From: a virus
Virus record (IMG/VR): IMGVR_UViG_3300033004_000003
Coordinates: 1-53,646 of that record
Length of the DNA: 53,646 nt
Reading direction: 5' to 3' (one strand)
Shown here: positions 5,509 through 51,876 of the stretch, one piece after another
How the letters are laid out: each line of letters begins with the position of its first letter
How positions within the stretch are numbered: position 1 is the first letter of the stretch
Translations under genes and position numbers: made by a program
The notes under the pieces: generated by a model
The model's database searches: none
What the model was told of the DNA's origin: nothing
The model's input: the letters and a program-made list of their open reading frames with translations, nothing else

Positions 5509-5926
5509 AAACATCCCAATCCCCGTCGCCGCCCGTAAATGGGACTTCACACAAGCCGAGATTGGCGACAGCGTGGCGTTCATGAACGAGGCGGACGCTG
5601 ACAAGTTTGCCGCCGCTGTTCGCCACTATAGCCGCGTTCACGGCACAGACTGGGGCGCGAAAAAGCTGGCGGCTGGCGAGAAGTGGCGTGTGTGGATCGT
5701 CGCCGGCAGAGGCCGCAAGCCGGTCAAACTGGAGCCGGTCAAGTTGCCAAAACTGCAAGTGTTTGCCGCACCTACGCCGTTGACTGACGAGGATTTGCAG
5801 ATCGTCGTGGACTACCGGCGCGGTGAGGATGTGACGCTAGCAAAGCCAAGACAGTATGAAATGGGCGAGCCGGAGGCGGAAGAAACAACGCCAACGGGGC
5901 GGCGTAAGAGGCTTATTCCGGAGTAA
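5498..5926 (+). CDS. Conserved small phage protein (KxIPxP...GDS type)
   Basis: Product of 142 aa from ATG 5498; a GTG at 5486 would add four residues. The N-terminus KNIPIPVAARKWDF..IGDSVAFM and the later block HGTDWGAKKLAAGEKWRVW match the layout of a widespread small phage family with an N-terminal K-x-I-P-x-P and a G-D-S turn, whose function is not known. The C-terminal 60 aa are variable and charged. Its stop overlaps the terminase ATG (TAATG), so the two are coupled. Confidence 0.6.
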   Translation: MFDKNIPIPVAARKWDFTQAEIGDSVAFMNEADADKFAAAVRHYSRVHGTDWGAKKLAAGEKWRVWIVAGRGRKPVKLEPVKLPKLQVFAAPTPLTDEDLQIVVDYRRGEDVTLAKPRQYEMGEPEAEETTPTGRRKRLIPE

Positions 5927-7572
5927 TGGCTAACCCGGCCATCATGCGCGTGCTCAATGACATGCGCGCGAAGCGGAAGCAGCAAATCAAAGCGGAGTGC
6001 GAGGCGAACTTATATCAGTTCGTCAAGCATTTCTGGCACATTGTAGAGCCTGCAAATCCCCTCATCGAAGGGTGGGTTATGGAGGCCATCTGCGAGCATT
6101 TGCAGGCAGTGACAGAAGGAAGGATACTGCGTCTTATCATCAACGTGCCGCCTGGTTGTTCCAAGTCACTATTATCGTGCGTGTTTTTTCCGGCTTGGGA
6201 ATGGGGCGCAAGGGGCATGACTTCCATACGCTATGCCTCGTTCAGTTACACAAGCACCCTGACTGAGCGTGACAATGGCCGATTGCTCCATTTGATCAGC
6301 AGCCCGCTTTATCAGGAATATTGGGGCGAGCGCCTTAAGGTATTTGGCGGCAAGGTCAAGGTTGAAAACAACAATACCGGGTGGAAACTCGCCACATCCA
6401 TAGGTGGAGTGGGCACCGGAGAGCGCGCGGACAGGTTGTTGTTGGACGATTTAAATAACGTCAAGGAATCTGAATCAAAAGCGATCTTGACCACAACTAA
6501 TCAGTGGATACGAGAGGTTATGCCGACGCGACTTAATCATTTGGCGCGGTCTTCTATCATCGCCATCCAGCAGCGAACGTCAGAGGAGGATTGCACAGGA
6601 ACGCTGGTTGCGGCGCGTGACGATTGGTGTTGGCTCATGGTGCCGATGAAGTACGACCCAATGCGCCATTGTAGCACGGAGATTGGCTGGTCTGATCCGC
6701 GCACGGTCGAAGGAGAGTTGTGCTGGCCAGAGCGGTTTCCGCCTGATGAGGTCGCCAAACTAGAGCGCGAAATGGGGCCTTACGCTTGGGCCGGCCAGAT
6801 GCAACAATCCCCAAGCCCGCGCGGCGGCGGAATTATCAAGACCGAATGGTGGCAGGACTGGCCGTCCAAGCAAACCCCACCGCTGGATTACATCGTGGCA
6901 TCTCTCGATACCGCCATGACTGAAAAGGAAGAGAGCGACTATTCCGCGCTGACGGTCTGGGGCTCGTTCCAGGATAGCGGCGCGATCATAGGCGACGAGT
7001 TCGGCGGTTATGACTTTGTGGCCAGCAACGAGCCGCGCGACCGAAGTCTGTTCGGCCAGGAAAGCCGAGAGCGCATGTCTGTTGTGTCAGCTTCTCTGCC
7101 AAAGATATTGTTGCTGAATGCCTGGCGGGAGCGGCTGGGACTGCCGGAGCTGGTGGAGAAGGTTATTTCAACTTGTATCCGTTACCGGGTGGACGTTTTA
7201 ATTATCGAAAATAAAGCACACGGCCATGCGGTTAACCAGACTATACGCGAAATGCTTGCAAGAAAACCCTTTAGCGTTGTAATGTATGATCCGCGTCAAT
7301 ATGGCGACAAATCCGCGCGTCTATACTCGATACAGCATTTGTTTTCTGAGGGTCTGATATATGCTCCGTTGGAGAAAGCCTGGGCAGATATGGTGATCCA
7401 AGAGGTTGCGAACTTCCCGCGCGCCAAGAATGATGACCTAGTTGACACCGTGAGCCAGGCGCTCCAGCACCTACGACAGCGCGGTTTCGCGCCTCGCCGT
7501 GAGGATGCTGTATCTGGCGTTACCGATCGTCTGCGCCACAAGGGGACGGCTAAGCCGCTGTATAACACATGA
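5926..7572 (+). CDS. terL: Terminase large subunit
   Basis: Product of 548 aa. N-terminal packaging ATPase: Walker A VPPGCSKS (74-81), Walker B-like hydrophobic strand ending in two aspartates (RLLLDD, about 171-176). C-terminal RNase H-like nuclease: ASLDTAM with catalytic Asp 328, DVLIIENKAHG near 420, and the final acidic motif NDDLVDT (502-508). It cleaves concatemers and drives DNA into the prohead at the portal. Overlaps neighbours on both sides by a few bases. Length is ordinary for the family. Confidence 0.95.
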   Translation: MANPAIMRVLNDMRAKRKQQIKAECEANLYQFVKHFWHIVEPANPLIEGWVMEAICEHLQAVTEGRILRLIINVPPGCSKSLLSCVFFPAWEWGARGMTSIRYASFSYTSTLTERDNGRLLHLISSPLYQEYWGERLKVFGGKVKVENNNTGWKLATSIGGVGTGERADRLLLDDLNNVKESESKAILTTTNQWIREVMPTRLNHLARSSIIAIQQRTSEEDCTGTLVAARDDWCWLMVPMKYDPMRHCSTEIGWSDPRTVEGELCWPERFPPDEVAKLEREMGPYAWAGQMQQSPSPRGGGIIKTEWWQDWPSKQTPPLDYIVASLDTAMTEKEESDYSALTVWGSFQDSGAIIGDEFGGYDFVASNEPRDRSLFGQESRERMSVVSASLPKILLLNAWRERLGLPELVEKVISTCIRYRVDVLIIENKAHGHAVNQTIREMLARKPFSVVMYDPRQYGDKSARLYSIQHLFSEGLIYAPLEKAWADMVIQEVANFPRAKNDDLVDTVSQALQHLRQRGFAPRREDAVSGVTDRLRHKGTAKPLYNT

Positions 7573-7751
7573 AACAGCCCGCTTTCACCGGGCATTGGTA
7601 TGCGCCTGAACAGCTAGGCTACGTGCGCGTGCCAGAGAAATGCACAGCCAAGGTTGAAGTCTACCGCGCGCCGGATGGCAAAATGCGTGAATGGGATGCC
7701 GAAAAAGGCCGTCCGCTGGTATTTGTTGACGATAATGCGGGGATTAGATGA
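7569..7751 (+). CDS. Small hypothetical protein between terL and portal
   Basis: Product of 60 aa, ATGA overlaps at both ends. Strand-rich (GHWYAPEQLGYVRVPEKC ... KVEVYRAPDGKMREWDAEKG). No family recognised. Its position between terminase and portal suggests a packaging accessory or simple filler; this is inference only. Confidence 0.6.
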   Translation: MKQPAFTGHWYAPEQLGYVRVPEKCTAKVEVYRAPDGKMREWDAEKGRPLVFVDDNAGIR

Positions 7752-9961
7752 GTTCTACACTAGGCGACCTCCTGGCATCCGCGAACATTCGGCAAACCCC
7801 CGCGCCGATTGCCGCGTTGCCACAACCTGATCTTGAGATTGCCATTGAAGGCGATGTTGCAGACCATAAGCTGGACCCGAAAACCGGCGTTATGGAGATC
7901 GAGGGGCCTGACGGAAGCATTACCATCGACTTCGCCCCTAATTTGGGCGGCAAGCTGTCCGACAAGTTCAACGACAATCTGGCTGTCTCGGGGAACATTG
8001 AATACGGCGCTCTGGCTAATGAGCTGATTAACGAGATTGATAGCGATCTAGGCTCTCGCTCCGAATGGATGGACCAGCGCGAGCAAGGGCTTGAATTGCT
8101 TGGTCTGAAGATCGAGAACCCACGCGGCGATACGGGCAATTCATCCGCGCCGCTTGAAGGCATGAGCACCATTCGCTCGCCTACGCTGCTGCAAGCCGTG
8201 CTGCGGTTCCAGGCCAATGCGCGCGGTGAATTGCTGCCAGCCATGGGGCCGATCAAGGTCATTGATAATTCGGCGGGCGGAACTGGCATTGCCGACGAAT
8301 GGGCGGAAATCCTAGAGCAAGACCTGAATATATACCTGACGCAGCGTTGCCCGGAGTATTATCCTGATACTGACCGCATGCTGTTCTATGTCGGTTTCGG
8401 CGGTTCTGGGTTTAAGAAGGTCTACCATTGTCCGCTGCGTCGCCGCCCTGTGTCCGAGAGCGTTGATGCGGCTGATCTGATCGTTGACGCCTCCGCTACC
8501 GATCTGCGCAACGCACGCCGCATAACGCATCGCATCCGCATGAGAGATAGCATGGTTAAGCGCATGCAGATTGCGGGAATTTACCGCGATGTTGCGTTAT
8601 CACAGGCCAGCTATAATCCAGATCAGGACGAAGTAATCGAGGCGCGTATCCAGGGCATCGACGTGATGCCGCAGCGGCCAGAGGACAACGACCGAACGAT
8701 CTATGAAATTCTGTGCGAGCGAGACTTTGGCGAGCATCCCAACCGAATGCCGCTGCCGTACAAGATCGTTCTTGACCGCGATAGCCAACAAGTCTTGGAA
8801 ATCCGCCGCAACTGGCGCGAAGACGATCCGATGTACATGCCGGTTAATATGTACGTGCGCTATCCGTACATCGAAGCAATGGGCATTTATGGCCTTGGCT
8901 TGCTGCATACAATCGGCAACCTGACAAAAGCCACGACGGCTGCTATCCGTGAAATGCTGGACGCCGGTATGTTCGCCAACTTCCCCGGTTTTGTGTACTC
9001 CGAGGGTGTCAATAGGCAGGAAACAAACGAGTTCCGTATTCCGCCAGGCGGAGGCATGCGCGTGCAGACGAACGGGCAGGACATCCGCACCGCATTGATG
9101 CCGTTGCCGTACAAAGATATATCTTCTGGGCTCATGTCGCTTGTTCAGGAGCTAATGAGCGCCACAGATAAGCTATCCGGCACGGCGGAAATGCCAACCG
9201 GCGAAGGTATGCAGAACGCGCCAGTAGGAACGACGCTGGCGATTATCGATCAGGCGTCTAAGGTGCTCGATGCCGTACATAAGCGTCTCCACGCGGCGCA
9301 GGCTGAAGAGTTCCGGCTGCTGAAAGATCGCCTTCTGGAAGACCCGGAGGCGTTTTGGCGCCATAATCCGGACGCCAGCACGAACTGGGACAAAGAGACG
9401 TTTGTCCAAGCTCTGAACCTGGTTGATCTGGTCCCGGTTGCGGACCCGAACACGCCGACGCATACGCACCGTCTGATGAAGGTCATGGGACTGATCCAGC
9501 TTGCCCAGCAGATGCCGCAAATGTTCAACATTCCAACTGTCATCGAGCATTCGCTGCGTCTGATCGGGTTCAACAATCCTAAAGAGTTCATGAACGACGG
9601 CACCCAGCCGCAGCAGCCCAATCCGGACATGATGAAGGCGCAGCTTGAACAGGCCAAACTACAGCAGCAGGGGCAAATCGCGGCGGCCAAGATGCAATCC
9701 GAACAGAACAAGTCTAAGTTGGAGCTTATCAAGGCTCAATTGCAGCAGAAAACCGACGTGATGGAAATTCAGGGCAAGCAGCAGATAGAAGCCGGATGGC
9801 TGCAGATCGAGGCAGGACGGCAGCGCCACGAAAAAACAAAGGATGGCGCTGCAATGGTTAGCGATGCTATGGAACACATGCAACCGGGATTGGGCGGATT
9901 GGCCGCTCCACCGCAAGCCGCGAGCGCCGGCCCTAGCGCTCCTGTTGGAGTGACACCATGA
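7748..9961 (+). CDS. Portal protein
   Basis: Product of 737 aa, directly after terL. Large portals of this size are typical of podoviruses. Characteristic features are the long helical region with repeated APLEGMSTIRSPTLLQAV-type contacts (about 135-160), the segment YPYIEAMGIYGLGLLHTIGN (about 373-392), and a Gln-rich C-terminal coiled coil (about 555-680) that would form the barrel entering the head. The Pro/Ala-rich last 30 aa are probably disordered. The portal forms the dodecameric DNA channel at one capsid vertex and the docking site for the terminase and adaptors. Confidence 0.88.
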   Translation: MSSTLGDLLASANIRQTPAPIAALPQPDLEIAIEGDVADHKLDPKTGVMEIEGPDGSITIDFAPNLGGKLSDKFNDNLAVSGNIEYGALANELINEIDSDLGSRSEWMDQREQGLELLGLKIENPRGDTGNSSAPLEGMSTIRSPTLLQAVLRFQANARGELLPAMGPIKVIDNSAGGTGIADEWAEILEQDLNIYLTQRCPEYYPDTDRMLFYVGFGGSGFKKVYHCPLRRRPVSESVDAADLIVDASATDLRNARRITHRIRMRDSMVKRMQIAGIYRDVALSQASYNPDQDEVIEARIQGIDVMPQRPEDNDRTIYEILCERDFGEHPNRMPLPYKIVLDRDSQQVLEIRRNWREDDPMYMPVNMYVRYPYIEAMGIYGLGLLHTIGNLTKATTAAIREMLDAGMFANFPGFVYSEGVNRQETNEFRIPPGGGMRVQTNGQDIRTALMPLPYKDISSGLMSLVQELMSATDKLSGTAEMPTGEGMQNAPVGTTLAIIDQASKVLDAVHKRLHAAQAEEFRLLKDRLLEDPEAFWRHNPDASTNWDKETFVQALNLVDLVPVADPNTPTHTHRLMKVMGLIQLAQQMPQMFNIPTVIEHSLRLIGFNNPKEFMNDGTQPQQPNPDMMKAQLEQAKLQQQGQIAAAKMQSEQNKSKLELIKAQLQQKTDVMEIQGKQQIEAGWLQIEAGRQRHEKTKDGAAMVSDAMEHMQPGLGGLAAPPQAASAGPSAPVGVTP

Positions 9962-10482
9962 CCACGACCCGCCGCGCCGCCTCTAACGCCTCCCATGACG
10001 CCAAGCTCAAGCGTATGCTTGGGGAGGCCACGCATCATGCTGATAAGCTGATGGACGAGCACAAGAAGATGGCAGATCATCTTAGCCCGAAAGAGGTTAA
10101 GAAGATTGCAGACAAAGAGATCGAGGTCAAAGGCTGTGAGACGAAGAAGCGCCTTGACCGCGCCGCCCGCAAGAAAGGTGGCCGCACTAAGGGCGACGTG
10201 AACATTATCATCGCCCAGAAGCCCGACATGCCGCAAGGTCCGATGGGTGGAGCGCCTATGGCTCCCCCGCCGCGTATCCCTATCCAGGCGCCGGTCCCCG
10301 CTGCCGCTCCTGCTCCCGGTGCAGCCATGCCGCCTCCGGGCGTTCCCGGTTCCATGCCGATGCCTGGCGCTGCCGCTGGTATCCCTGCCCGTAAGAAGGG
10401 CGGCGCGATTAAGATGGAGTTTGGCGCTGGAACTGGTTTGGGGCGTCTGGAAAAGGCTGCCCGCTACGGCAGTAAGAAGTAA
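9958..10482 (+). CDS. Basic low-complexity protein with KKGGR motif
   Basis: Product of 174 aa, overlapping the portal stop. N-terminal 70 aa are helical and charged, ending in ETKKRLDRAARKKGGRTKG. Residues about 90-145 are almost all Pro/Ala/Met/Gly and surely disordered. Another KKGG lies at the C-terminus (ARKKGGAIKMEFG). The LDR..RKxGG block recurs in the Lys-rich protein at 15297. It is possibly a minor head or DNA-contacting protein; function unknown. Confidence 0.6.
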   Translation: MTTTRRAASNASHDAKLKRMLGEATHHADKLMDEHKKMADHLSPKEVKKIADKEIEVKGCETKKRLDRAARKKGGRTKGDVNIIIAQKPDMPQGPMGGAPMAPPPRIPIQAPVPAAAPAPGAAMPPPGVPGSMPMPGAAAGIPARKKGGAIKMEFGAGTGLGRLEKAARYGSKK

Positions 10483-10679
10483 TGAACGCATTTTCTCTTG
10501 ACATACGCTCGCTTCGTAAAGCACAAGAGAAGATAACGGAAGAATTGAAAGAGCTTTGCGACGGAGTTTTAGCGGTTAAATGCCAGGATTACGCGGCCTA
10601 TACTGAAAAGGTAGGCCGGTATCATGGTCTTCGCAGGGCGATAGAGGTTCTTCAGGAAGTTGAGAAAGACCTGAAGTAG
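10482..10679 (+). CDS. Small coiled-coil protein
   Basis: Product of 65 aa, TAATG overlap with the preceding gene. Entirely helical with heptads (LRKAQEKITEELKELCDG ... RRAIEVLQEVEKDLK). No family recognised. It lies in the head-assembly block next to the GroES-like gene. Confidence 0.6.
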   Translation: MNAFSLDIRSLRKAQEKITEELKELCDGVLAVKCQDYAAYTEKVGRYHGLRRAIEVLQEVEKDLK

Positions 10680-11110: not shown

Positions 11111-11367
11111 TGGCGAAGAAACTGACACACGCCCATGAGGCGGATAACGGGCTTGCCGAGAAGATTTTGAGCGGCGAGGTTTATCAGGTTGAAGCCACTG
11201 AAGATCCATTGGAGGCTGTAAACGCCGCAATTCGCGATCTTCGGGGGCGCGCCAAATCCCTTCTGGCTCACGTTTCCGAAATCGAAGCCTATTTGGTCCA
11301 TCTCGGCAAGACGATGGGCCATAACGGCACGCCGCAGTTTACCCCGCATGGAGAAAGTGATGACTGA
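11110..11367 (+). CDS. Small hypothetical helical protein
   Basis: Product of 85 aa, TAATG overlap with the GroES-like gene. It is mostly helical: LEAVNAAIRDLRGRAKSLL, then HVSEIEAYLVHLGKTM. Its last 8 bases overlap the scaffold gene start, so the two are coupled. No family recognised; a head-assembly accessory is possible from position. Confidence 0.55.
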   Translation: MAKKLTHAHEADNGLAEKILSGEVYQVEATEDPLEAVNAAIRDLRGRAKSLLAHVSEIEAYLVHLGKTMGHNGTPQFTPHGESDD

Positions 11368-12229
11368 AGCTACGAACCAGGACGATATCGAGATCGTCCT
11401 CGATGATGGCTTGCCTGCGGTCGAAACTCCGGTAACGGAAGCGCCCAAGGTAACTGACGTTGACGAGGGCATTAACGATCTCAAGCGACAACTGGAAGCG
11501 GAGCGCGCCCGCGTTGCCCAGGCTGAGCAAGCTGCCAGCACGGCGCGCCAGGAAAGCCTGAAGTTCAAGACCGAGGCCGAACAGTCGCAATACGCCGCGA
11601 TCAGCCGCGCTCTTGAGGCCGCAAACGTCGCCGTTGATACGGTGCAGGGCGATTACGAGCGCGCTCTGGAGGCGGGCGACTACAAAGCCGCTGCTAAGCT
11701 CCAGGTGCAGATTACCAAGGCCGTAGCGCAGCAAGCGGCGCTGGAAAACGGCAAAGCGCAGATGGACGCCTACCGCGCCGATCCGCGTTACCAGCAGCAA
11801 CAGCAGCAACCCGCGCCGGATAGCTTCGACGCCAAGATTGCCGGCATGTCTCAGCGCACGCAGGCATGGCTTAAGGCGCATCCCGACGCGGTGACTGATC
11901 CTGTGCGGCAGAATAAGGTGGCGTCGGCTCACTACGCCGCTTTGGCTGATGGCCACGCGCCGGATACTGACGCGTATTTCGCGTTTGTCGAGAACCATGC
12001 CGGTTACACGAAGAAGCCCGCAACGTCGCAGCCGCAGCGCACCGCAAGCCCGTCCGCCCCGGTTTCTGGCCAGGCGCGCGCGCCAGCCGGAGAGCAAGTG
12101 AACGGCAACCGCGTTGTGATGACGCCCAAGATGCGCGAAGCGGCGAAGATTGCCGGTGTCACTGAGCAAGAATATGCCCGCGAATACCTGCGCGCCGTCA
12201 AGGCGGGCGACATTGAACGTTTGAATTAA
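11360..12229 (+). CDS. Putative scaffolding protein
   Basis: Product of 289 aa from ATG 11360. It begins acidic (DDIEIVLDDGLPAVE), followed by a long coiled coil (about 40-140: LKRQLEAERARVAQAEQAA ... YERALEAGDYKAAAKLQVQ), a Gln-rich break, and a C-terminal helical domain (KMREAAKIAGVTEQEYAREY, about 255-275) that could contact the capsid. This acidic start, coiled coil and small C-terminal domain between portal and major capsid is how phage scaffolds are built. No protease motif seen. Confidence 0.75.
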   Translation: MTEATNQDDIEIVLDDGLPAVETPVTEAPKVTDVDEGINDLKRQLEAERARVAQAEQAASTARQESLKFKTEAEQSQYAAISRALEAANVAVDTVQGDYERALEAGDYKAAAKLQVQITKAVAQQAALENGKAQMDAYRADPRYQQQQQQPAPDSFDAKIAGMSQRTQAWLKAHPDAVTDPVRQNKVASAHYAALADGHAPDTDAYFAFVENHAGYTKKPATSQPQRTASPSAPVSGQARAPAGEQVNGNRVVMTPKMREAAKIAGVTEQEYAREYLRAVKAGDIERLN

Positions 12230-13853: not shown

Positions 13854-14768
13854 ATGCCTATTAATCTATCCTCGATCAAGAACGAACTGCTCCCCGGCCT
13901 TCGCGCTCTTACCGGCAAGTATGATCAAATCCCCCGCGAGTGGGACCAGATTTTCGACGTCGGTAAATCTGAGATGGCCCTGGAACGCACCGTCGAAATG
14001 GCGTACCTCGGCTATGCCCAGCTCAAGACCGAAGGCGCGGCTACCACGTTCGACAACTCGGCCGGCGAGCGCTTCACCTACAACCAGGAGCACACCGAGC
14101 TTGCGCTTGGTTACGCCATCACCCGCAAGGCGGTGGACGATAACCTCTACAAGCGCCAGTTCAACCCCGCCAACCTGAACATGATGCAGTCGTTCAATCA
14201 GACGCAGGAAATTCTTGCGGCGAACGTGCTGAACACTGCCGGCGTGTACAATGCGGCTGTGGGCGGTGACGGCGTTTCTCTGGTTAACGCCAGCCATCCG
14301 GTTGATGGCGGCACCTACTCCAACACCTTCAGCACGGCGGCTGATCTGAACGAAAGTTCCCTGCTGAACGCGATGATCCAGATCCGTACTGGCTTCGTCG
14401 ATCAGCGCGGCCTGAAGCTTTACGCCCGTGGCCGAAAGCTGGTCATCCCGCCGCAGCTTGAGCCGACTGCTCTGCGCCTCATCAAGACCGCGCTGCGCCC
14501 CGGCACCGCCGACAACGACATCAACGCCATCATGTTCACTACTGGTGGTCTGAAGGACGGCTATCTGGTCGATGACTACCTGACCAGCCCTTATGCCTGG
14601 TTCCTGCTGACCAACATCCCCGGCCTGCTCTACCTGGAGCGCGTGCCGTTCGAGATGGATATGCAGGTGGACTTCACCACAGATAACCTTCTCGTGAAGG
14701 GCTATCACCGGTACTCCTTCAGTTACTACAATCCAAGGGCCATCTTCGGCACCTTCCCGACCTCGTAA
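13854..14768 (+). CDS. Major capsid protein
   Basis: Product of 304 aa, RBS GGGGAGCATGACAG. N-terminus has ALTGKYDQIPREWDQIF and MAYLGYAQLKTEGA, then LALGYAITRKAVDD, VNASHPVDGGTYSNTF and the C-terminal LVKGYHRYSFSYYNPRAIFG. This resembles the Mu-like (gpT-type) HK97-fold capsid subunits. A scaffold gene is present upstream and no prohead protease is seen, so maturation without cleavage by a phage protease is possible. Highest-expression position, behind its own leader. Confidence 0.85.
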   Translation: MPINLSSIKNELLPGLRALTGKYDQIPREWDQIFDVGKSEMALERTVEMAYLGYAQLKTEGAATTFDNSAGERFTYNQEHTELALGYAITRKAVDDNLYKRQFNPANLNMMQSFNQTQEILAANVLNTAGVYNAAVGGDGVSLVNASHPVDGGTYSNTFSTAADLNESSLLNAMIQIRTGFVDQRGLKLYARGRKLVIPPQLEPTALRLIKTALRPGTADNDINAIMFTTGGLKDGYLVDDYLTSPYAWFLLTNIPGLLYLERVPFEMDMQVDFTTDNLLVKGYHRYSFSYYNPRAIFGTFPTS

Positions 14769-25723: not shown

Positions 25724-28700
25724 TGGGCAAAGGTTCAAGCACGACTACCAGCAAGACGACGCCAGCCCCGCAAGCAGAAGCGATGGGCAACCAGGCATGG
25801 AGCGCGGCGCAGTCTGCGGCGTCTAATCCATACCAATATTACCCAGGCCAGCTTGTCGCCAATCTCAACCCCGACCAGATGCAGGCGTTTAATACCGTCG
25901 CGCAGTCTCAGGGTATTGCAAATCCGTATATCAATGCAGCGTCTCAGCTAACCAGCTCCGCTTCCCAACCAATTGGCGCGTCTCAGATCAATCAGTACAT
26001 GAACCCGTATATCGGGGATGTCGTTGGTACAACCGCCGCCGAGATTAACCAAAACAACGCCATTCAACAGAACCAGCTACAAGGCAACGCAGCGGCACTT
26101 GGCGCCCTCGGCGGCAACCGCGTGGGCATCGCACAGGCGGCGCTCGCCAACCAGCAGGCAATGGCGGAAAATCAGACTTTATCAGGACTGTATCAGGGCG
26201 GATACAATACCGCGTTGCAGGCCGCGCAGACACAGAACGCGCAGCAGCTACAGGGCGCTTACGAATACGCCAACCTTGGTACTGAGGCGCAGACAGCGGC
26301 GCTTACCGGCGCGAACGCTCAAATCCAGACGGGCGGCATCGAGCAGCAACAGCAACAGAACATCCTGAACCAAGCCTATTCGCAGTGGCTTGGAGCGCAG
26401 CAATACCCGTTTCAGACTGGCCAGTATCTCACGAATACGGCGGGTACACTGGCGGGGCTGTACGGTGGGACATCGTCCACGACAATTCCGGCGCCGTCTA
26501 CGTTCTCGCAGATTGTGGGTGGTTTGACTGGCGTTGCTGGTATCGTCGGCGCTGCGCGCGGCTCCAAAGTCGGTGGACGGATTAATAATGATCTCGGCGG
26601 CTTGGATGGATATGACAGCGGCGGGTTTGTCGGGCCTACTCAATTCGCAGGGCCAGAAGCGCCTCCGCCCTATGATCCAAATAAAAACGTTGAGGCTAAA
26701 GCGTTTGGCGGACGTATTGGCTATGACGATGGTGGATTTGTTGGCCCTACGCATTTCTCTGGTCCGCAAGCTCCACCGCCGTATAACCCCAATAAAAATG
26801 TTGAGATGAAAGCCGATGGCGGACGCATTGGCTACGATGGCGGCGGCGGTATCCCGTACCAAATTGGCGGCATACAGGCTCAAGACCTAACTGGGATGTC
26901 CCATCCTGTTGGATATGTATCAAGCGCTGGCACGGCTGGCGCTACACACTTTGCTGGTCCGCAGGCTCCGCAAGGGTACGATCCGAACAAAAATGTAGAT
27001 CAATCTTCCGGTTTGTCGAAGCAACAAGTGACAGATTTGGGAAGCCTATATGAAGGCGCAAAAAATTACATCAATGGAGCATACGGCCCGACGATGGGGG
27101 GAGGCATAGGAGGCGGGACCAGCGATGCAGCCATGGTTGCTCATCAAGGAGGCCAAAAATCAGGAGGTCGTGTAGGTCGCGCATCTGGCGGTCAATCGGG
27201 CAATACGCCTTCCACGGGCGGCTTGTCTGGCCTTACCGCGTCTCTGTCTAACCCGACCATGACAGAGGGGCAGCAGATTGAGAACTACCAATTCCTGTCG
27301 CCAATGATATCAACAGGCCGCGCGCCGGAAGTAGGGCAGCAGCAGCAACAGCAGCAAGAAAGCCCGCTGCAAGAGGAACAAGCCGAGGAACAAACGCTCG
27401 CCTCTATGGCTGGCCATGCTCATGGCGGACGTGCTGCAAAGGCTGGCGGTGGAAGTCTAGGCGCGCTGCCTACGCCGCAATATGTAGGCACTGGCCCCGC
27501 ACAAACGGCCCCGCAGCCGACAAGCACGGCGGGAACGCAACCCACGTCTTGGGGCAATGTGCAGATGCCATCTGCGCCGATGCTGGCGGCTCCTCAAGGC
27601 GCTGCGCCGGGCACGGGACAACTGCCAGCACTCGGCGGACAAGCTGCGCAGAATTTTGCGGCCAGTTACACCGGCTCGCAAGACCCATACGCGGCATACA
27701 TACAGAGCCTTACCGGCGCCAATCCGTCCGCTGGCAACCGTGCGCCGGGAGTGAACGCGACGACTGCATCAGCAACACCCGCAACCACGGTATCTCCCGG
27801 TTTGGCGGCGCTACTCAAGTCTTGGGGGGTTAATGCATCGGGCATGAAGTCTGGCGGTCGCGCTGGCTATGACGTGGGTGGCGATGTAGCGAATACGCCG
27901 CAAGATTTGGGCAGCACTGCCACGCCAGCCCCAGTTACTGCAACGCCAATTCCGGGCGTGTCGCCAGACTACGTTGCCCGCGTAAACCACATCGAGAGCG
28001 GCGGAAATCCTGCCGCGACTAGCTCGACCTCTACAGCTTCCGGCTTGGGGCAGATTACCGTCCCGACTGCTAAAGCGCTCGCCCCCAGTTTGGCTGGACT
28101 AAGTGACCAGCAGGTGCAGAAGATGGTCCAGCAGCCCGCTGTATCCAACGATCTAACTGCGGAGCTTGCCAAGAAAAACGCCGCATATCTCACGGCAAAT
28201 AATCTGCCTGCCAATGACGGAACTGTTTACCTCGCCCACAATTTCGGTGCAGGCGGGGCCAAGGCATTGCTGACTGCTGATCCGAATACACCAGTTGAAA
28301 ACGTGCTGCCGAAAGAGGACATTACGGCAAATCCCGATCTGGAAGGCAAGACAGTCGGACAAGTCATTGCCAGCCGTTATGCCGAAGTTGGCGCGAAAGT
28401 TGCTCAAAACACCGCCCAGCAGCCGAACTACGGTGGGAACCAGACCGCGACGGACACAAGTCCACTGCCTCCCATCGGTGGAGATCAGGGGCTTGCCACA
28501 TATCAGCAACAGGCTGGAAACGCTCAATACAACTTGACGCAGCCGCAACAGACTGAGGTTGACAAGTTTGCTAATTCGCCGTGGATGGCGCTGGCACAGG
28601 CTGGGCTTGCCACTATGGCCGGAACATCGCCGTTTGCGGGGGTGAACATCGGTGCTGGTGGTCTGGCGGGGCTGCAATATCTGCAAAGCACGCAGGGCCA

Positions 28701-29931
28701 AGAGCGCGCCAATGCTGGGTTGCTTGCGAATATCCAGCAGAACCAAGCAGAATTGCAGCAGCGTGGCCTTGGGCAAGTTTTGCAGGGCGTGCAGGCTGGA
28801 CAGAATGAGCAGCAAATCCGCGCCAATCTCGAGCAAACGATTATCAACGCAAATCCTAATTACACTCAGGCTCAGGTTGCAGCGGAAGCACAGAACCTTA
28901 TCAACGCCGTCACAAATCAGAGCGGCTCTCTTGGCTACAATCCGCCTGTCCAGGGACCGCAGATGCCTCCTGGCATTGTTCAGGGCGGCAATGTCACGCC
29001 GGCCACTCCTGCACCGGTTGTTACGCCACAGCCTGCCGCGCCTGCTCCTGCGCCGCAAACGACAACGGGCGCGGTAGGGCCTGCCCCGCAAGCTCCGCAA
29101 CAGCCATATGTTGCCGCTACGCCGCAATTCGCGCAATCCGCAACGGGCATGCCTCCGGTTGGCGCGGCGACGATCGACACGTCTGCGCCGTCTCCGATCG
29201 GCAACGGGACGCTGCCGCTTGCACAGGCGTACCAGAAGGCTCAACAGATGAGCATTGTCCCGCAGCTAAACACTGCGGCACAGTCTTTTTATTCTCGCAT
29301 GGAACCTCTGATGAACCGTCAGGGCGCCGTCGAGTTGCAGAAACAGGGCAACGCAGCCGCGCAGCAGATGCAGAACATGGATGAACTGGCGGCAGAGGCG
29401 GCTCAAATTCATACCGGACCGGTGACGGGGCAGTTCGTCGCTCATGCGGTTCAGGCTTATGAGGATATTTCTAGCGCTTTTGGATTGCCGATTGACCAGT
29501 CAATCACCGCAAGCTCTGACGCAAGCCAAGTTCTGCCGAAGCTCTCCGCAAACCTGTTGGCCACTATCGGGCGCATGGGGTCTGACGTAGGTGGCGCTGA
29601 AACGCTACGTATGATGGGGCCGGCTGTTCCGACGTCCGCAAACACCGTGTCAGGCATCCCGAAACTAGTGCAAGTTTACAATACCATGAGCCAGCGAACC
29701 ATGGCGCTCGGCAACTATGTTAATGCTGCAGTGTCTCAAAATACGATGACTTACGCGCAGGCTATCGGCGCCTTCAACCAGCAATATCCGCCCGCAATGT
29801 GGGCATCGCACGTTACGCCATTGGCGTTACCTGACAATGTTGCCGCGTTGAAGCCTGGTTTCGCTTACCAAGCGAACGGCAATTATGCTATATGGAATGG
29901 GCAGAGCTTCCAACCCATGAGCGGACAATAA
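25723..29931 (+). CDS. Internal virion protein with lytic transglycosylase domain
   Basis: Product of 1402 aa, GTG start overlapping the previous stop. N-terminal 250 aa: YYPGQLVANLNPDQMQAFN, a Gln/Asn/Ala helical region with NPYIGDVVGTTAAEINQNN and AALGALGGNRVGIAQAAL, found at the start of many short-tailed-phage internal proteins. Residues about 300-430 hold 37-aa repeats. An SLT-type transglycosylase domain spans about 745-900, with catalytic Glu near 757 (NHIESGGNPAATSSTSTASG, then LGQIT). Long Gln/Ala coils follow, and a C-terminal helical domain. It likely crosses the envelope with the DNA and opens peptidoglycan. Several K-x-GGR motifs are present. Confidence 0.8.
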   Translation: MGKGSSTTTSKTTPAPQAEAMGNQAWSAAQSAASNPYQYYPGQLVANLNPDQMQAFNTVAQSQGIANPYINAASQLTSSASQPIGASQINQYMNPYIGDVVGTTAAEINQNNAIQQNQLQGNAAALGALGGNRVGIAQAALANQQAMAENQTLSGLYQGGYNTALQAAQTQNAQQLQGAYEYANLGTEAQTAALTGANAQIQTGGIEQQQQQNILNQAYSQWLGAQQYPFQTGQYLTNTAGTLAGLYGGTSSTTIPAPSTFSQIVGGLTGVAGIVGAARGSKVGGRINNDLGGLDGYDSGGFVGPTQFAGPEAPPPYDPNKNVEAKAFGGRIGYDDGGFVGPTHFSGPQAPPPYNPNKNVEMKADGGRIGYDGGGGIPYQIGGIQAQDLTGMSHPVGYVSSAGTAGATHFAGPQAPQGYDPNKNVDQSSGLSKQQVTDLGSLYEGAKNYINGAYGPTMGGGIGGGTSDAAMVAHQGGQKSGGRVGRASGGQSGNTPSTGGLSGLTASLSNPTMTEGQQIENYQFLSPMISTGRAPEVGQQQQQQQESPLQEEQAEEQTLASMAGHAHGGRAAKAGGGSLGALPTPQYVGTGPAQTAPQPTSTAGTQPTSWGNVQMPSAPMLAAPQGAAPGTGQLPALGGQAAQNFAASYTGSQDPYAAYIQSLTGANPSAGNRAPGVNATTASATPATTVSPGLAALLKSWGVNASGMKSGGRAGYDVGGDVANTPQDLGSTATPAPVTATPIPGVSPDYVARVNHIESGGNPAATSSTSTASGLGQITVPTAKALAPSLAGLSDQQVQKMVQQPAVSNDLTAELAKKNAAYLTANNLPANDGTVYLAHNFGAGGAKALLTADPNTPVENVLPKEDITANPDLEGKTVGQVIASRYAEVGAKVAQNTAQQPNYGGNQTATDTSPLPPIGGDQGLATYQQQAGNAQYNLTQPQQTEVDKFANSPWMALAQAGLATMAGTSPFAGVNIGAGGLAGLQYLQSTQGQERANAGLLANIQQNQAELQQRGLGQVLQGVQAGQNEQQIRANLEQTIINANPNYTQAQVAAEAQNLINAVTNQSGSLGYNPPVQGPQMPPGIVQGGNVTPATPAPVVTPQPAAPAPAPQTTTGAVGPAPQAPQQPYVAATPQFAQSATGMPPVGAATIDTSAPSPIGNGTLPLAQAYQKAQQMSIVPQLNTAAQSFYSRMEPLMNRQGAVELQKQGNAAAQQMQNMDELAAEAAQIHTGPVTGQFVAHAVQAYEDISSAFGLPIDQSITASSDASQVLPKLSANLLATIGRMGSDVGGAETLRMMGPAVPTSANTVSGIPKLVQVYNTMSQRTMALGNYVNAAVSQNTMTYAQAIGAFNQQYPPAMWASHVTPLALPDNVAALKPGFAYQANGNYAIWNGQSFQPMSGQ
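26620..27003 (+). repeat. 37-aa (111-bp) tandem repeats in the internal protein
   Basis: Units start GGFVGPT[QH]F at 26620 and 26731 (exact 111-bp spacing) and run through FSGPQAPPPY, NPNKNVE and GGRIGYD. A third, partial copy (THFAGPQAPQGYDPNKNV) lies at about 26940-27000. DNA identity is lower than protein identity, so the copies are old and kept by selection. Confidence 0.8.
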
Positions 29932-41672: not shown

Positions 41673-42581
41673 TCAGGGCAGGCACTCCATCGCAGCCGCG
41701 ATGAACTCGCGCGCGACGACAGCATTTATGGCGTTACCAGCACCGCGGATGATGCCCACGTCGCCGGTATTCCTTGGAGCCACAGGGTAAAGGCCGGGTT
41801 GAGTAGGCCGCTTCTTCCCGTCGAGGCAGTCGAGCCATTCAAGCTCGCGCCAGGGATCGTGTGGGCCACCTGATTGTTCAACTGCTCGCCCTTCTTCGCT
41901 CCACCGCGTTCCGCAAAGGCTTTGTGGTTCGGGGTCCGCCAGTCCCTCGCGGATGGGGTGGCCCACCCCGTCACTAGCTGGACGAAGTCTTGGAGATCGT
42001 TCGCATGACCACCCAGAGCGCGGGCTAGAACCTTCTGCGGGTCTATCGTCGCCCCGCCGCTCTTGCCTTTGACGGTCGGCGTAGGCAACCCAGAATCGGC
42101 GGTGGCGGATGTTTGGGGCGCCGAAGCCCGCAGAATTGAGTACGACCGACCCGCAGGCGTAGCTTCCACCTTCCAGGTCTGTCGATACAGCGTCGAACCA
42201 CACCCTTGCTGCCGGGCTATCAACTTGCTCGCCAAAGATCGCGTGAGGTCCACACTCTTTGATGAGACGCCACCAATCCGGCCACAAATGGCGGTCGTCA
42301 GCGATTCCAGCGGCGTCTGGGTTTGCCCCGCTGAACGGCTGGCATGGGCAGCTTCCAGTCCAAATAGGTCGGCTATCTGGCCACCCTGCCTCGCGTAGCG
42401 CGTGCGACCAGATGCCGATGCCGGCGAAGAAATGGCATTGCACGTAGCCTTCAAGGTCGGCAGATCGAACGTCGCAAATAGATCGGTCATCAACATCCCC
42501 AGGAGCGATAAGCCCGGCTGCAATCAGATTTCGCAGCCATTGAACCGCGAACGGCTCAATCTCGTTGTAGTACGCCGTCAC
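41673..42581 (-). CDS. DNA cytosine-5 methyltransferase
   Basis: Product of 302 aa, GTG start at 42581 with GGAAGG before it and a GTGA overlap with the upstream small gene; a TTG at 42629 is unlikely. VTAYYNEIEPFAVQWLRNLI is the normal start of this phage family. Motif I FFAGIG (51-56), motif IV GSCPCQPFS with catalytic Cys 80, motif VI-like GEQV (117-120, where ENV is typical), motif VIII IRHRRFWVA (158-166), and C-terminal DGKKRPTQPGLYPVAP then GAGNAINAVVA (motif X). The target-recognition region is short. It probably modifies phage DNA against restriction. A second ORF overlaps it in the +1 frame. Confidence 0.9.
   Translation of the reverse strand: MTAYYNEIEPFAVQWLRNLIAAGLIAPGDVDDRSICDVRSADLEGYVQCHFFAGIGIWSHALREAGWPDSRPIWTGSCPCQPFSGANPDAAGIADDRHLWPDWWRLIKECGPHAIFGEQVDSPAARVWFDAVSTDLEGGSYACGSVVLNSAGFGAPNIRHRRFWVAYADRQRQERRGDDRPAEGSSPRSGWSCERSPRLRPASDGVGHPIREGLADPEPQSLCGTRWSEEGRAVEQSGGPHDPWRELEWLDCLDGKKRPTQPGLYPVAPRNTGDVGIIRGAGNAINAVVAREFIAAAMECLP
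41726..42490 (-). CDS. Overlapping +1-frame ORF inside the methyltransferase
   Basis: A 254-codon ORF (ATG 42490, preceded by CTGGGGATGTTG) fully inside the methyltransferase gene on the same strand. It reads MTDLFATFDLPTLKA, SSPASASGRTRYARQGG, STLYRQTWKVEATPAGRSYS, SGLPTPTVKGKSGG, GWATPSARDWRTPN and GLLNPAFTLWLQGIPATW. These blocks (LPTPT, WATPSARDW, LNPA..WL.G.P..W) match a protein family often annotated by itself in phages. Whether it is translated or is the mirror image of methyltransferase conservation cannot be told here. The methyltransferase is certainly real. Confidence 0.4.
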   Translation of the reverse strand: MTDLFATFDLPTLKATCNAISSPASASGRTRYARQGGQIADLFGLEAAHASRSAGQTQTPLESLTTAICGRIGGVSSKSVDLTRSLASKLIARQQGCGSTLYRQTWKVEATPAGRSYSILRASAPQTSATADSGLPTPTVKGKSGGATIDPQKVLARALGGHANDLQDFVQLVTGWATPSARDWRTPNHKAFAERGGAKKGEQLNNQVAHTIPGASLNGSTASTGRSGLLNPAFTLWLQGIPATWASSAVLVTP

Positions 42582-42852: not shown

Positions 42853-43020
42853 ATGCCGAAAACACCGACAAAACCAAAACTTACCAGCATTACCATTCGC
42901 GTATCGGAAGAACTTAAGGCCCACGCGACGGAGGCCGCGAGTGATGATAGTCGCTCGCTCTCATCGTGGCTTGAGCAGATCATAAAGAAAGCATTGAAAG
43001 GAAAGCGCCGTGCCAGTTAA
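42853..43020 (+). CDS. Ribbon-helix-helix (CopG/Arc-like) repressor
   Basis: Product of 55 aa. PKLTSITIRVSEELKAHATE has the N-terminal DNA-contacting strand and first helix; SRSLSSWLEQIIKKALKG is the second helix. This is the compact RHH fold that binds operators as a dimer. First gene behind a strong promoter, divergent from the methyltransferase; it may control both. Overlaps the next gene by 11 bp. Confidence 0.75.
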   Translation: MPKTPTKPKLTSITIRVSEELKAHATEAASDDSRSLSSWLEQIIKKALKGKRRAS

Positions 43021-49774: not shown

Positions 49775-50596
49775 GTGAGCGTCACCATTTCCAAGCCCAC
49801 TAACAACATGGTCCTGCGCCCGCAGTCGTTCGCGGAACTGAGCCAATTCGCCCAGATGGCGGCTAAGTCGGCTCTCGTGCCACGCGATTACCAGGGCAAG
49901 CCTGAAAATGTGATGCTGGCCGTGCAGATGGGCAGCGAAGTCGGTCTGGCGCCAATGCAGGCGCTGCAGAACATCGCCGTTGTCAATGGCCGCCCCGCGA
50001 TCTGGGGTGATGCGATGCTCGGGCTGGTCAAGGCATCTGGCCTACTCACCGACATCATCGAGACGATCGAAGGCGAAGGCGACGCCATGACCGCGATCTG
50101 CACGGTCAAGCGCGCCAATTCTTCTCCGGTCACAGTGTCGTTTTCCGTGGCCGACGCGAAGAAGGCCGGGCTTTGGGGTAAACAGGGACCGTGGACGCAA
50201 TACCCGCGCCGGATGCTCCAGATGCGTGCTCGCGGTTTCGCGTGCCGCGATGGGTTTCCCGACGTGCTCAAGGGCCTGATCAGCGCGGAGGAGGCGCAGG
50301 ATATCCCCACGAACGCGCCGGAGCAGACGGGGCGGATTATCGACGTTGAGACGGAACAGCCGAAGGCCGAGCCGCGCAAGCCGACGTGGAGGGAATGGAT
50401 CGGCGCGCTTCATGCTGACATCGAGAACGCGAAAGATCGTGAAGCCGTGACGTCGATCATGTGGCGTGCGGATGTGCAACGCGCGTTTGCCGCCGTGACC
50501 GGCGACAAGGCTGACGAACTGCAAAAGCTGCAGGATATGGCCGACGCGAAGTTCCCGCCGCCCGAAGAAGCCGATTTCGCAGAGGAATCGCCTTGA
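49775..50596 (+). CDS. recT: RecT-like single-strand annealing protein
   Basis: Product of 273 aa, GTG start one base after the Gp157 stop. The family blocks are clear: MLAVQMGSEVGLAPMQALQN, IAVVNGRPAIWGDAMLGLVK, SVADAKKAGLWGKQGPWTQY, PRRMLQMRARGFACRDGFPD. It anneals complementary single strands in phage recombination. The usual partner exonuclease (YqaJ/RecE type) is not adjacent; the VRR-NUC protein at 52563 is the only nearby nuclease. The acidic C-terminus may bind host SSB. Confidence 0.88.
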   Translation: MSVTISKPTNNMVLRPQSFAELSQFAQMAAKSALVPRDYQGKPENVMLAVQMGSEVGLAPMQALQNIAVVNGRPAIWGDAMLGLVKASGLLTDIIETIEGEGDAMTAICTVKRANSSPVTVSFSVADAKKAGLWGKQGPWTQYPRRMLQMRARGFACRDGFPDVLKGLISAEEAQDIPTNAPEQTGRIIDVETEQPKAEPRKPTWREWIGALHADIENAKDREAVTSIMWRADVQRAFAAVTGDKADELQKLQDMADAKFPPPEEADFAEESP

Positions 50597-50896: not shown

Positions 50897-51091
50897 ATGG
50901 ATGCTATCGAAGTGATGCTATTATTGAATAAGGCCGTTCGCGATGCTGGATCACAAAAGGCATTTGCCGAACAGTGTGGGATTTCACAACAGTTTTTGCA
51001 TGACGTTCTGAACGCGAGGCGGGCACCGTCAGAAAAAATACTTTCGGTTATTGGCATACGGAAAGTCGTTAGGTTTGAGAGTGTCAAATGA
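50897..51091 (+). CDS. Cro-like HTH protein, paralogue 1
   Basis: Product of 64 aa from ATG 50897 (no Shine-Dalgarno). LLLNKAVRDAGSQKAFAEQC, GISQQFLHDVLNARRAPSEK and ILSVIGIRKVVRF match the second copy at 52091 (AGDQKKFCQQHGLSESILSD, TLNARRDPGPALLKALGYEK). It belongs to a common phage HTH family with AGSQ..A...G.S...V.D.L..RR.P. First gene after the terminator. Overlaps the homing endonuclease gene by 4 bp. Confidence 0.7.
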   Translation: MDAIEVMLLLNKAVRDAGSQKAFAEQCGISQQFLHDVLNARRAPSEKILSVIGIRKVVRFESVK

Positions 51092-51876
51092 TATCTGATA
51101 TTGAAAATCATTATCTTAACCTTCAAAGGCCTAGGAAATATCGTCCGGCAGAAGAGCTGCCACGCCATATTTACATGCTAGTTGATCCGTTTACCGATGA
51201 AATAAGATACGTCGGAAAAGCCGTTTATCCGAAAGATCGGCTAAAAGATCATCTGAAAGATACTAGCAACACTCACAAAGTACATTGGATTCAGTCTGTC
51301 ATTCGCAAGGGCGCGGTTCCCATTATGGTTCTTTTAGAGACCATAGAGGGAAGCGCAGATTGGACTTGGCAAGAAGCAGAAAAACGCTGGATCGCAAAGT
51401 TTAGGGCGATGGGCGCTCGTCTCGTTAATTCCACAGACGGCGGTGATGGGGTAGAAAATATAGCCCCTGAATCCAAAGAGAAAATGCTTAAGACATGGAC
51501 TGGACGAAAGCATACGACCGAGACAAAGAAAAAGATTAGCGCGTACAGGAAAACATGGAAAGCATCTGCTGAAACGCGAGCAGCTATGAGTGCAGCTCAT
51601 ACAGGACGCGAAATAACATGGGGAAATAAAATCTCTGAAGCCACGAGAAAGCTATCTGAAGAACAATGCAACTCTATTCGTCTTAAGAAGATGAGCGGAG
51701 AGAAAATCTCTGATATCGCTCAAGAGTTTGGGGTTCACAAAGACACGATTAGAAAAGTTATAAAAGGAACCTACTTTATGAAGGAAAAAGACAGGCTTGC
51801 GAACCGCCGAAAAGCCGTGAAGCATCTGACTGCATATAGCCAAAACGCGATAGACCTGTTCTCGGTGGCATCATGA
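51088..51876 (+). CDS. GIY-YIG homing endonuclease
   Basis: Product of 262 aa. GIY-YIG module: HIYMLVDPFTDEIRYVGKAV, then PKDRLKDHLKD, the invariant-type Glu in EAEKRWIAKFRAMGARLVN. Linker with a NUMOD3-like helix (GRKHTTETKKKISAYRKTW) and a C-terminal helix-turn-helix (ISDIAQEFGVHKDTIRKVIK). Domain order equals SegA/I-TevI relatives. It is a free-standing selfish gene; its DNA is more AT-rich than its neighbours. It sits between two paralogous HTH genes. Confidence 0.85.
   Translation: MISDIENHYLNLQRPRKYRPAEELPRHIYMLVDPFTDEIRYVGKAVYPKDRLKDHLKDTSNTHKVHWIQSVIRKGAVPIMVLLETIEGSADWTWQEAEKRWIAKFRAMGARLVNSTDGGDGVENIAPESKEKMLKTWTGRKHTTETKKKISAYRKTWKASAETRAAMSAAHTGREITWGNKISEATRKLSEEQCNSIRLKKMSGEKISDIAQEFGVHKDTIRKVIKGTYFMKEKDRLANRRKAVKHLTAYSQNAIDLFSVAS

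Follow-up and report, generated by a model that had tools for sequence, protein, structure and literature searches.

The window analyzed here, the whole 53,646 nt stretch of IMG/VR virus record IMGVR_UViG_3300033004_000003, carries a cytosine methyltransferase gene with a long second open reading frame lying inside it on the same strand. This arrangement raises the question of whether one or both frames are translated and, if both, what the inner protein does. A sequence-only reading of the window had left two options: either both frames encode protein, with the inner one perhaps an antirestriction or regulatory partner, or many database entries for the inner frame are mirror images of methyltransferase conservation.

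The Methyltransferase Frame

The methyltransferase frame (alpha) lies on the minus strand and is open from 42629 to 41673; as listed, its ORF runs from TTG 42629 and encodes 318 aa. Because homologues begin MTAYYNEIEPF, the start is probably GTG 42581 rather than TTG 42629. The following features were located:

41673–42581, minus strand: alpha, the C5-cytosine methyltransferase frame, 302 aa from the probable start GTG 42581 (MTAYYNEIEPF...), matching PF00145 and phrog_363
42414–42428, minus strand: alpha motif I (FAGIG), near-invariant in alignment A2 (25 rows)
42339–42347, minus strand: alpha motif IV with the catalytic PCQ, invariant in alignment A2 (25 rows)
42222–42230, minus strand: alpha motif VI, EQV replacing ENV, at least 90% conserved in A2
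42096–42107, minus strand: alpha motif VIII (RHRR; consensus RQRL), with R175 invariant and R177 at least 90% conserved in A2
41738–42035, minus strand: alpha residues ~199–297, lying over the putative recognition and motif IX region of the inner frame, predicted unstructured and without motif IX (AF2 pLDDT 31–61)
41730–41738, minus strand: alpha motif X core (GNA of GAGNAINAVVAREFI), with G298 invariant and N299 and A300 at least 90% conserved in A2

The methyltransferase is real, as the sequence-only reading held from its PCQ, motif I and motif X. Alpha matches phrog_363 (1.2e-65) over nearly its full length and PF00145 (1.9e-11) over residues 91–188 only, which correspond to motifs IV–VIII, and it carries the AdoMet motif I, catalytic PCQ and motifs VI, VIII and X of that family. 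Neither motif IX nor an ordered target-recognition region was found in the alpha chain, as the PF00145 match ends at residue 188 and AF2 pLDDT is 31–61 at residues 199–298. The core of the AF2 model is confident, with pLDDT >90 at residues 20–90, and a Foldseek search with this model matched M.HaeIII and M.HhaI. Following the low-pLDDT residues 199–298, the C-terminal helix is confidently predicted.

The Inner +1-Frame ORF

The inner ORF (beta) proved to be as first described, with 254 aa and a stop codon at 42490–41726, on the minus strand like alpha, and with all three blocks GLPTPTV, WATPSARDW and LNPAFTLWLQG present. Its frame is open from 42523 to 41726, and a second in-frame ATG is found at 42496. 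Its features are:

41726–42490, minus strand: beta, the +1-frame ORF inside alpha, 254 aa from ATG 42490 (MTDLFATFD...), matching phrog_1008
42170–42199, minus strand: beta block GSTLYRQTWK (consensus GSTLYxLTWK), synonymous ratio 1.80, an AF2 strand at residues 104–111 with pLDDT ~80–90
42077–42088, minus strand: beta block LPTP (consensus GWPTPxxxD), a repeat also found in-frame with motifs I–VIII in actinophage enzymes
41939–41965, minus strand: beta block WATPSARDW, synonymous ratio 2.22, codon differences 30% beta-synonymous versus 11% alpha-synonymous
41756–41803, minus strand: beta motif IX, LNPAFTLWLQGIPATW, with the L-x-P-x5-L-x-G-x-P spacing of the canonical LTPRECxRLQGFP, synonymous ratio 2.31

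The blocks had been taken for those of a known phage protein family, and profile searches agree, with matches to phrog_1008 (9.2e-18) and phrog_31772 (1.4e-07), both labelled DNA methyltransferase. Beta relatives match the same two families in 29/29 and 28/29 cases, respectively, and relatives are encoded in 191 of 50,697 phage records, all at <60% identity. Searches of Pfam, NCBIfam and PADLOC with beta returned nothing significant, including no antirestriction or known defence-related match, and searches of the PDB with beta and with its AF2 model gave no match. The AF2 model of beta alone is of low confidence (pLDDT 63.7), with only one helix and one hairpin well predicted; such poor folding alone would fit a half-protein that needs a partner.

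Stop Codon Avoidance in the +1 Frame

The length of beta in the window does not by itself distinguish it from chance. A comparably open +1 frame arises in 17% of synonymous shuffles of alpha (P = 0.17), which is not significant, and comparison with relatives was therefore needed. The window also contains antisense ORFs of 250–363 aa at 28153–29244, 13866–14708, 11339–12169 and 9769–10524 (all minus strand), which probably reflect the chance openness of GC-rich DNA.

Across 112 non-redundant loci, 49 stops were found in the +1 frame versus 376 expected, while the third frame of the same loci held 1185 stops versus 1125 expected, that is, as many as expected. Loci L054–L133 of this set were retrieved with a beta pattern and so carry a selection bias, and for this reason the key tests were repeated on loci selected by alpha. 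In the resulting set of 35, made up of the window plus loci found through alpha only, the +1 frame has 8 stops versus 104 expected, and stops are avoided along the whole length of beta. A second, independent alpha-selected set of 80 bacterial/prophage loci has an intact beta inside alpha in the +1 frame at 79/80 loci. The remaining locus (L269, Consotaella salsifontis) has an in-frame stop in alpha and an intact beta.

Stops or frame breaks in the inner frame of close relatives had been named in advance as evidence against its translation; they do occur in a few relatives (beta of L009, L018 and L043; alpha of L269 is likewise broken). A further check proposed was whether the inner frame keeps its length and start; the frame is retained in relatives, and its start is not fixed. 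Judged by these counts, the openness of the +1 frame across relatives is far beyond chance.

Selection on Both Frames

A frame kept open among relatives could still be a mirror image, with alpha alone translated and the +1 blocks reflecting its amino-acid conservation and GC-rich codon usage. The lack of significance of the window's open frame taken alone fits this explanation, as does the C-terminal tail of some relatives (APTxTxSxRKxR), which is the +1 reading of motif X. To compare the two frames, we took alpha residues shared in pairs of 35–65% identity among alpha-selected loci and calculated the ratio of observed to expected identical codons. This ratio is 1.05 before the beta start and 1.10 in the first part of beta, and reaches 1.80 in GSTLYxLTWK, 1.75 in LRAS..WPTP, 2.22 in WATPxxRD and 2.31 in LNPxxxxWLMGxPxxW, before coming down to 1.33 after the end of beta. 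The third positions of alpha codons, which are second positions in beta, fall in entropy from 1.38 to 0.68 bits in the LNP block.

Protein-level identity gave the same picture. For the 35 alpha-selected sequences, +1 protein identity is 0.407 versus 0.253 (maximum 0.257) with shuffled synonymous codons, and in the motif IX (LNP) block it is 0.61 versus 0.24; the window's own +1 identity lies above all shuffles against 34/34 loci. Beta is more conserved than alpha in the WATP block (0.46 versus 0.31). Where codons of the WATPxxRD block differ, a fraction of 0.30 is synonymous in beta and 0.11 in alpha, with differences peaking at the wobble base of beta, and the N-terminus has the reverse pattern (0.07 in beta and 0.60 in alpha). 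In this comparison of substitutions in both frames, which the sequence-only reading had proposed as a check, the differences follow the codon phase of beta. In addition, viral contig L176 carries the WPTP and LNPTWVEWLMGYP blocks of beta in DNA with 18 alpha-frame stops and 45% GC.

We rejected the mirror-image explanation on the basis of the shuffles, the codon phase and L176, and give it hardly any remaining weight. Stops, +1 identity and synonymous codons are all far from what a mirror would produce, L176 carries the beta blocks without an open alpha frame, and in actinophages the same blocks stand in another frame relation to alpha. The idea that database entries are mirror images is accordingly refuted for the main body of beta and holds only for the last ~15 residues of some relatives, where the tail does mirror motif X. 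An RNA or DNA element could by itself cause synonymous constraint, and one that froze these sites would need no second protein, but we consider this every bit as improbable: the differences follow the codon phase of beta, which largely excludes such an element, +1 stops are avoided over the entire length, and the beta blocks recur in another frame context. The other option, that both frames are translated, has strong support: stops are avoided, synonymous sites are frozen, conservation is in the +1 phase, and L176 keeps the beta blocks in DNA closed to alpha. By these measures both frames are selected as protein. The L176 locus itself (5761–7295, minus strand) is in three pieces, with motifs I–VIII at 7295–6738, beta at 7078–6155 and a separate motif X ORF at 6003–5761.

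Relationship of Beta to the Recognition Region and Motif IX

In canonical C5 enzymes, motifs I–VIII come first, followed by a variable region that houses the target-recognition domain, then motif IX and finally motif X (PMC3404938). The most conserved block of beta (consensus LNPAHSRWLMGLPxEW) matches motif IX (LTPRECWRLQGFPDW) exactly in its spacing, and the L-x-P-x5-L-x-G-x-P pattern is found just before motif X (LNPAFTLWLQGIP). The middle of alpha is predicted to be disordered and is poorly conserved, and the conserved variable region lies in beta.

In the enzymes of actinophages Ramsey (gp69) and Lton (gp60), a single frame encodes motifs I–VIII, LPTP repeats, a motif IX-like block and motif X. 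PF00145 covers residues 19–360 of the Lton enzyme (profile positions 11–316 of 324), and an unguided alignment with canonical enzymes places the actinophage motif IX-like block on motif IX, just before motif X. Matches to phrog_1008 were obtained for Ramsey (2.3e-72), Lton (7.4e-46) and gp81 of Mycobacterium phage Refuge (1.7e-74). An HMM built from overlapping betas (A3) also found Ramsey (2.9e-9), Refuge gp81 (6.5e-8) and Lton (8.5e-6), with the best shuffled controls at >1 for the A3 model and ~0.1 for the other two models used. As Ramsey and Lton also carry a partial +1 ORF, they are not a clean outgroup. We considered Ramsey, Lton and locus L187 as plain single-frame enzymes and rejected this, since the N-terminal portion of beta persists in their +1 frames; they appear to be shifted split points and not a proven ancestor.

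On these alignments and profile matches, beta shares homology with the part of C5 methyltransferases that spans the recognition region and motif IX. It is therefore most probably the missing half of the enzyme to which alpha belongs, and would be its specificity half. Alternatively, beta could be made as a protein of its own, a passenger with an antirestriction, regulatory or homing role and no part in the methyltransferase. An unrelated protein can be hidden out of frame in a phage methylase gene, as is the case for the HNH endonuclease of phage ShiLan (PMC11855218), and the lack of a Pfam, PADLOC or PDB match for beta would suit a passenger. However, the blocks of beta have their homologues in the C-terminal part of single-frame C5 enzymes, with motif IX in its proper place, alpha is missing motif IX and an ordered recognition domain, and alpha is present, whole or in part, at essentially every beta locus examined. 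We therefore regard a passenger as unlikely, and the antirestriction or regulatory partner first suggested for the inner frame is not supported. The ShiLan case resembles the window in using a second frame inside a phage methylase gene, but it is an inserted homing element found in a few phages (PMC11855218), whereas beta lacks any HNH match, is not inserted and would be part of the methyltransferase.

Proposed Two-Polypeptide Enzyme

We think it very probable that a single C5-cytosine methyltransferase is made from this locus as two polypeptides, each read from one of the overlapping frames, in the manner of M.EcoHK31I. Alpha would be the catalytic domain, with the AdoMet site, the PCQ nucleophile, motifs I–VIII and, at its C-terminus, motif X. 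Beta would start within alpha at ATG 42490, be read in the +1 frame by independent initiation, and supply the variable or target-recognition region along with motif IX; ordinary C5 enzymes carry these elements on one chain with the rest, between motifs VIII and X. The part of alpha encoded over beta is poorly conserved and is probably a flexible linker that returns motif X to the core. The two chains would then associate into an active enzyme in which beta gives DNA recognition, and both polypeptides would presumably be needed for activity. Such an enzyme presumably shields phage DNA from host restriction, and we consider it probably an orphan methyltransferase with this protective role.

The beta region could also be reached by programmed frameshifting from alpha, producing a fusion of alpha motifs I–VIII with beta instead of a protein with its own start. 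Motifs I–VIII, the recognition region, IX and X are collinear in the DNA, locus L046 is a natural frame switch into beta, and the start of beta is variable, with relatives beginning at different codons and the first ~40 codons barely constrained; all of these would be compatible with a fusion. On the other hand, beta is conserved upstream of any plausible shift point, over motifs VI–VIII (GSTLYxLTWK, 1.80), which a fusion would not need. A +1-frame ATG is present before codon 60 and after the last stop at 108/112 loci, and 88 of those 108 have a Shine-Dalgarno-like 4-mer upstream of it, a raw count with no background rate. We therefore find frameshifting improbable, to about the same degree as the passenger, and favour the two separately initiated polypeptides; beta probably has its own start codon. 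The beta ATG often falls within the conserved V-D-(D/E)-R of alpha. In L046 (1501–2490) the alpha frame runs to SCPCQ and then passes straight into beta sequence in the same frame, joining the two halves.

Comparison with Known Systems

The small ORF of M.EcoHK31I lies inside the large gene in another frame, as beta does in the window, and M.EaeI is a two-polypeptide C5 methyltransferase as well. The motif split of M.EcoHK31I (YGGCCR) is also the one proposed here: its large subunit carries motifs I–VIII and X, and its small polypeptide has motif IX (PMC3404938). The two systems may differ in that the predicted target-recognition domain of M.EcoHK31I is in its large subunit (PMC3404938), whereas the evidence on the variable/recognition region here points to beta. 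In addition, a non-exhaustive search of the neighbours of the window locus turned up no restriction enzyme gene, which makes the pair look like an orphan phage enzyme. We assign the window pair to the M.EcoHK31I kind by layout and motif split, not by sequence comparison, and the location of the target-recognition domain is possibly different. Plasmid searches had no identifiable M.EcoHK31I locus among their matches.

M.AquI (CYCGRG) is likewise a two-subunit C5 enzyme split between motifs VIII and IX, but its small subunit carries both IX and X, whereas here motif X is in alpha and the beta frame ends at that motif. An AquI-like arrangement is seen in Refuge gp82/gp81, which overlap by ~100 bp and have motif X in the second protein. 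Escherichia phage K1ind2 has both overlapping genes annotated, as 'C-specific methylase' and 'Mte8-like protein', and the PHROG families phrog_363 (which includes alpha) and phrog_1008 (which includes beta) are both labelled 'DNA methyltransferase'. These labels do not state that the overlapping genes are halves of one enzyme. We came across no published description of this overlap in phages in our literature searches, which does not exclude that one exists.

Distribution and Variant Arrangements

The arrangement is very common among phages, with hundreds sharing it. The LNPxWVEWLMG pattern was found at no fewer than 120 loci in viral contigs. Among the matches listed, 99 are non-edge loci, and in 89 of these the −1 frame encodes a full alpha; they come from diverse phages with a GC content of 44–70%; the other 10 of the 99 are mostly variants (single-frame, split or frame-broken). 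Paenibacillus phage HB10c2 was considered as a beta-less control and rejected, as beta is present. The split point moves between loci, with motif IX in the alpha frame in L187, Ramsey and Lton. In L262 (1438–2781), L260 (714–1844) and L187 (105–1154) the N-terminal part of beta and the first LPTP units are read in the +1 frame, and motif IX shares the alpha frame with motif X; in the two actinophages the later LPTP repeats are in that frame too. One viral contig (L050, 1–2306) has two alpha/beta copies in tandem, the first of them incomplete at the locus edge.

It seems reasonably likely, though less so than the two-polypeptide enzyme itself, that interleaved catalytic and recognition halves are the usual state of a very large phage C5 family, found in phages of Proteobacteria, Firmicutes and Actinobacteria, with beta as a recognition subunit able to change specificity and alpha over beta a mere readable linker. 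If so, few long same-strand overlapping gene pairs in prokaryotic viruses would be more widespread, and there would be a few natural escapes, in which motif IX is back in the alpha frame or beta lies in single-coded DNA. The family would provide hundreds of independent natural cases in which to measure selection on a long (~250-codon) overlap, and the natural escapes allow one to ask why the overlap persists.

Annotation and Phage Context

The second frame thus appears to be a real protein that is often missed or mislabelled in genome annotation, and a conflict between annotations becomes a testable model in which one gene is read in two frames to give both halves of a single enzyme. Automatic pipelines often retain just one of the frames, or call each of them a methyltransferase in its own right. 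As a consequence, the specificity assignment of many phage methyltransferases would miss the recognition half, and cloned alpha alone should be an inactive protein.

Elsewhere in the window we found genes for a VapE-like protein (1163–2419), a terminase large subunit (5926–7569), an SU10-type portal (7748–9958), RecT (49775–50593) and a GIY-YIG/NUMOD3 homing endonuclease (51088–51873). Divergent from the methyltransferase, at 42853–43020 on the plus strand, is a 55-aa ORF (TKPKLTSITIRVSEELKAHATEAASDDSRSLSSWLEQIIKKALKGKRRAS) that by eye resembles Arc/ribbon-helix-helix repressors and is a possible regulator.
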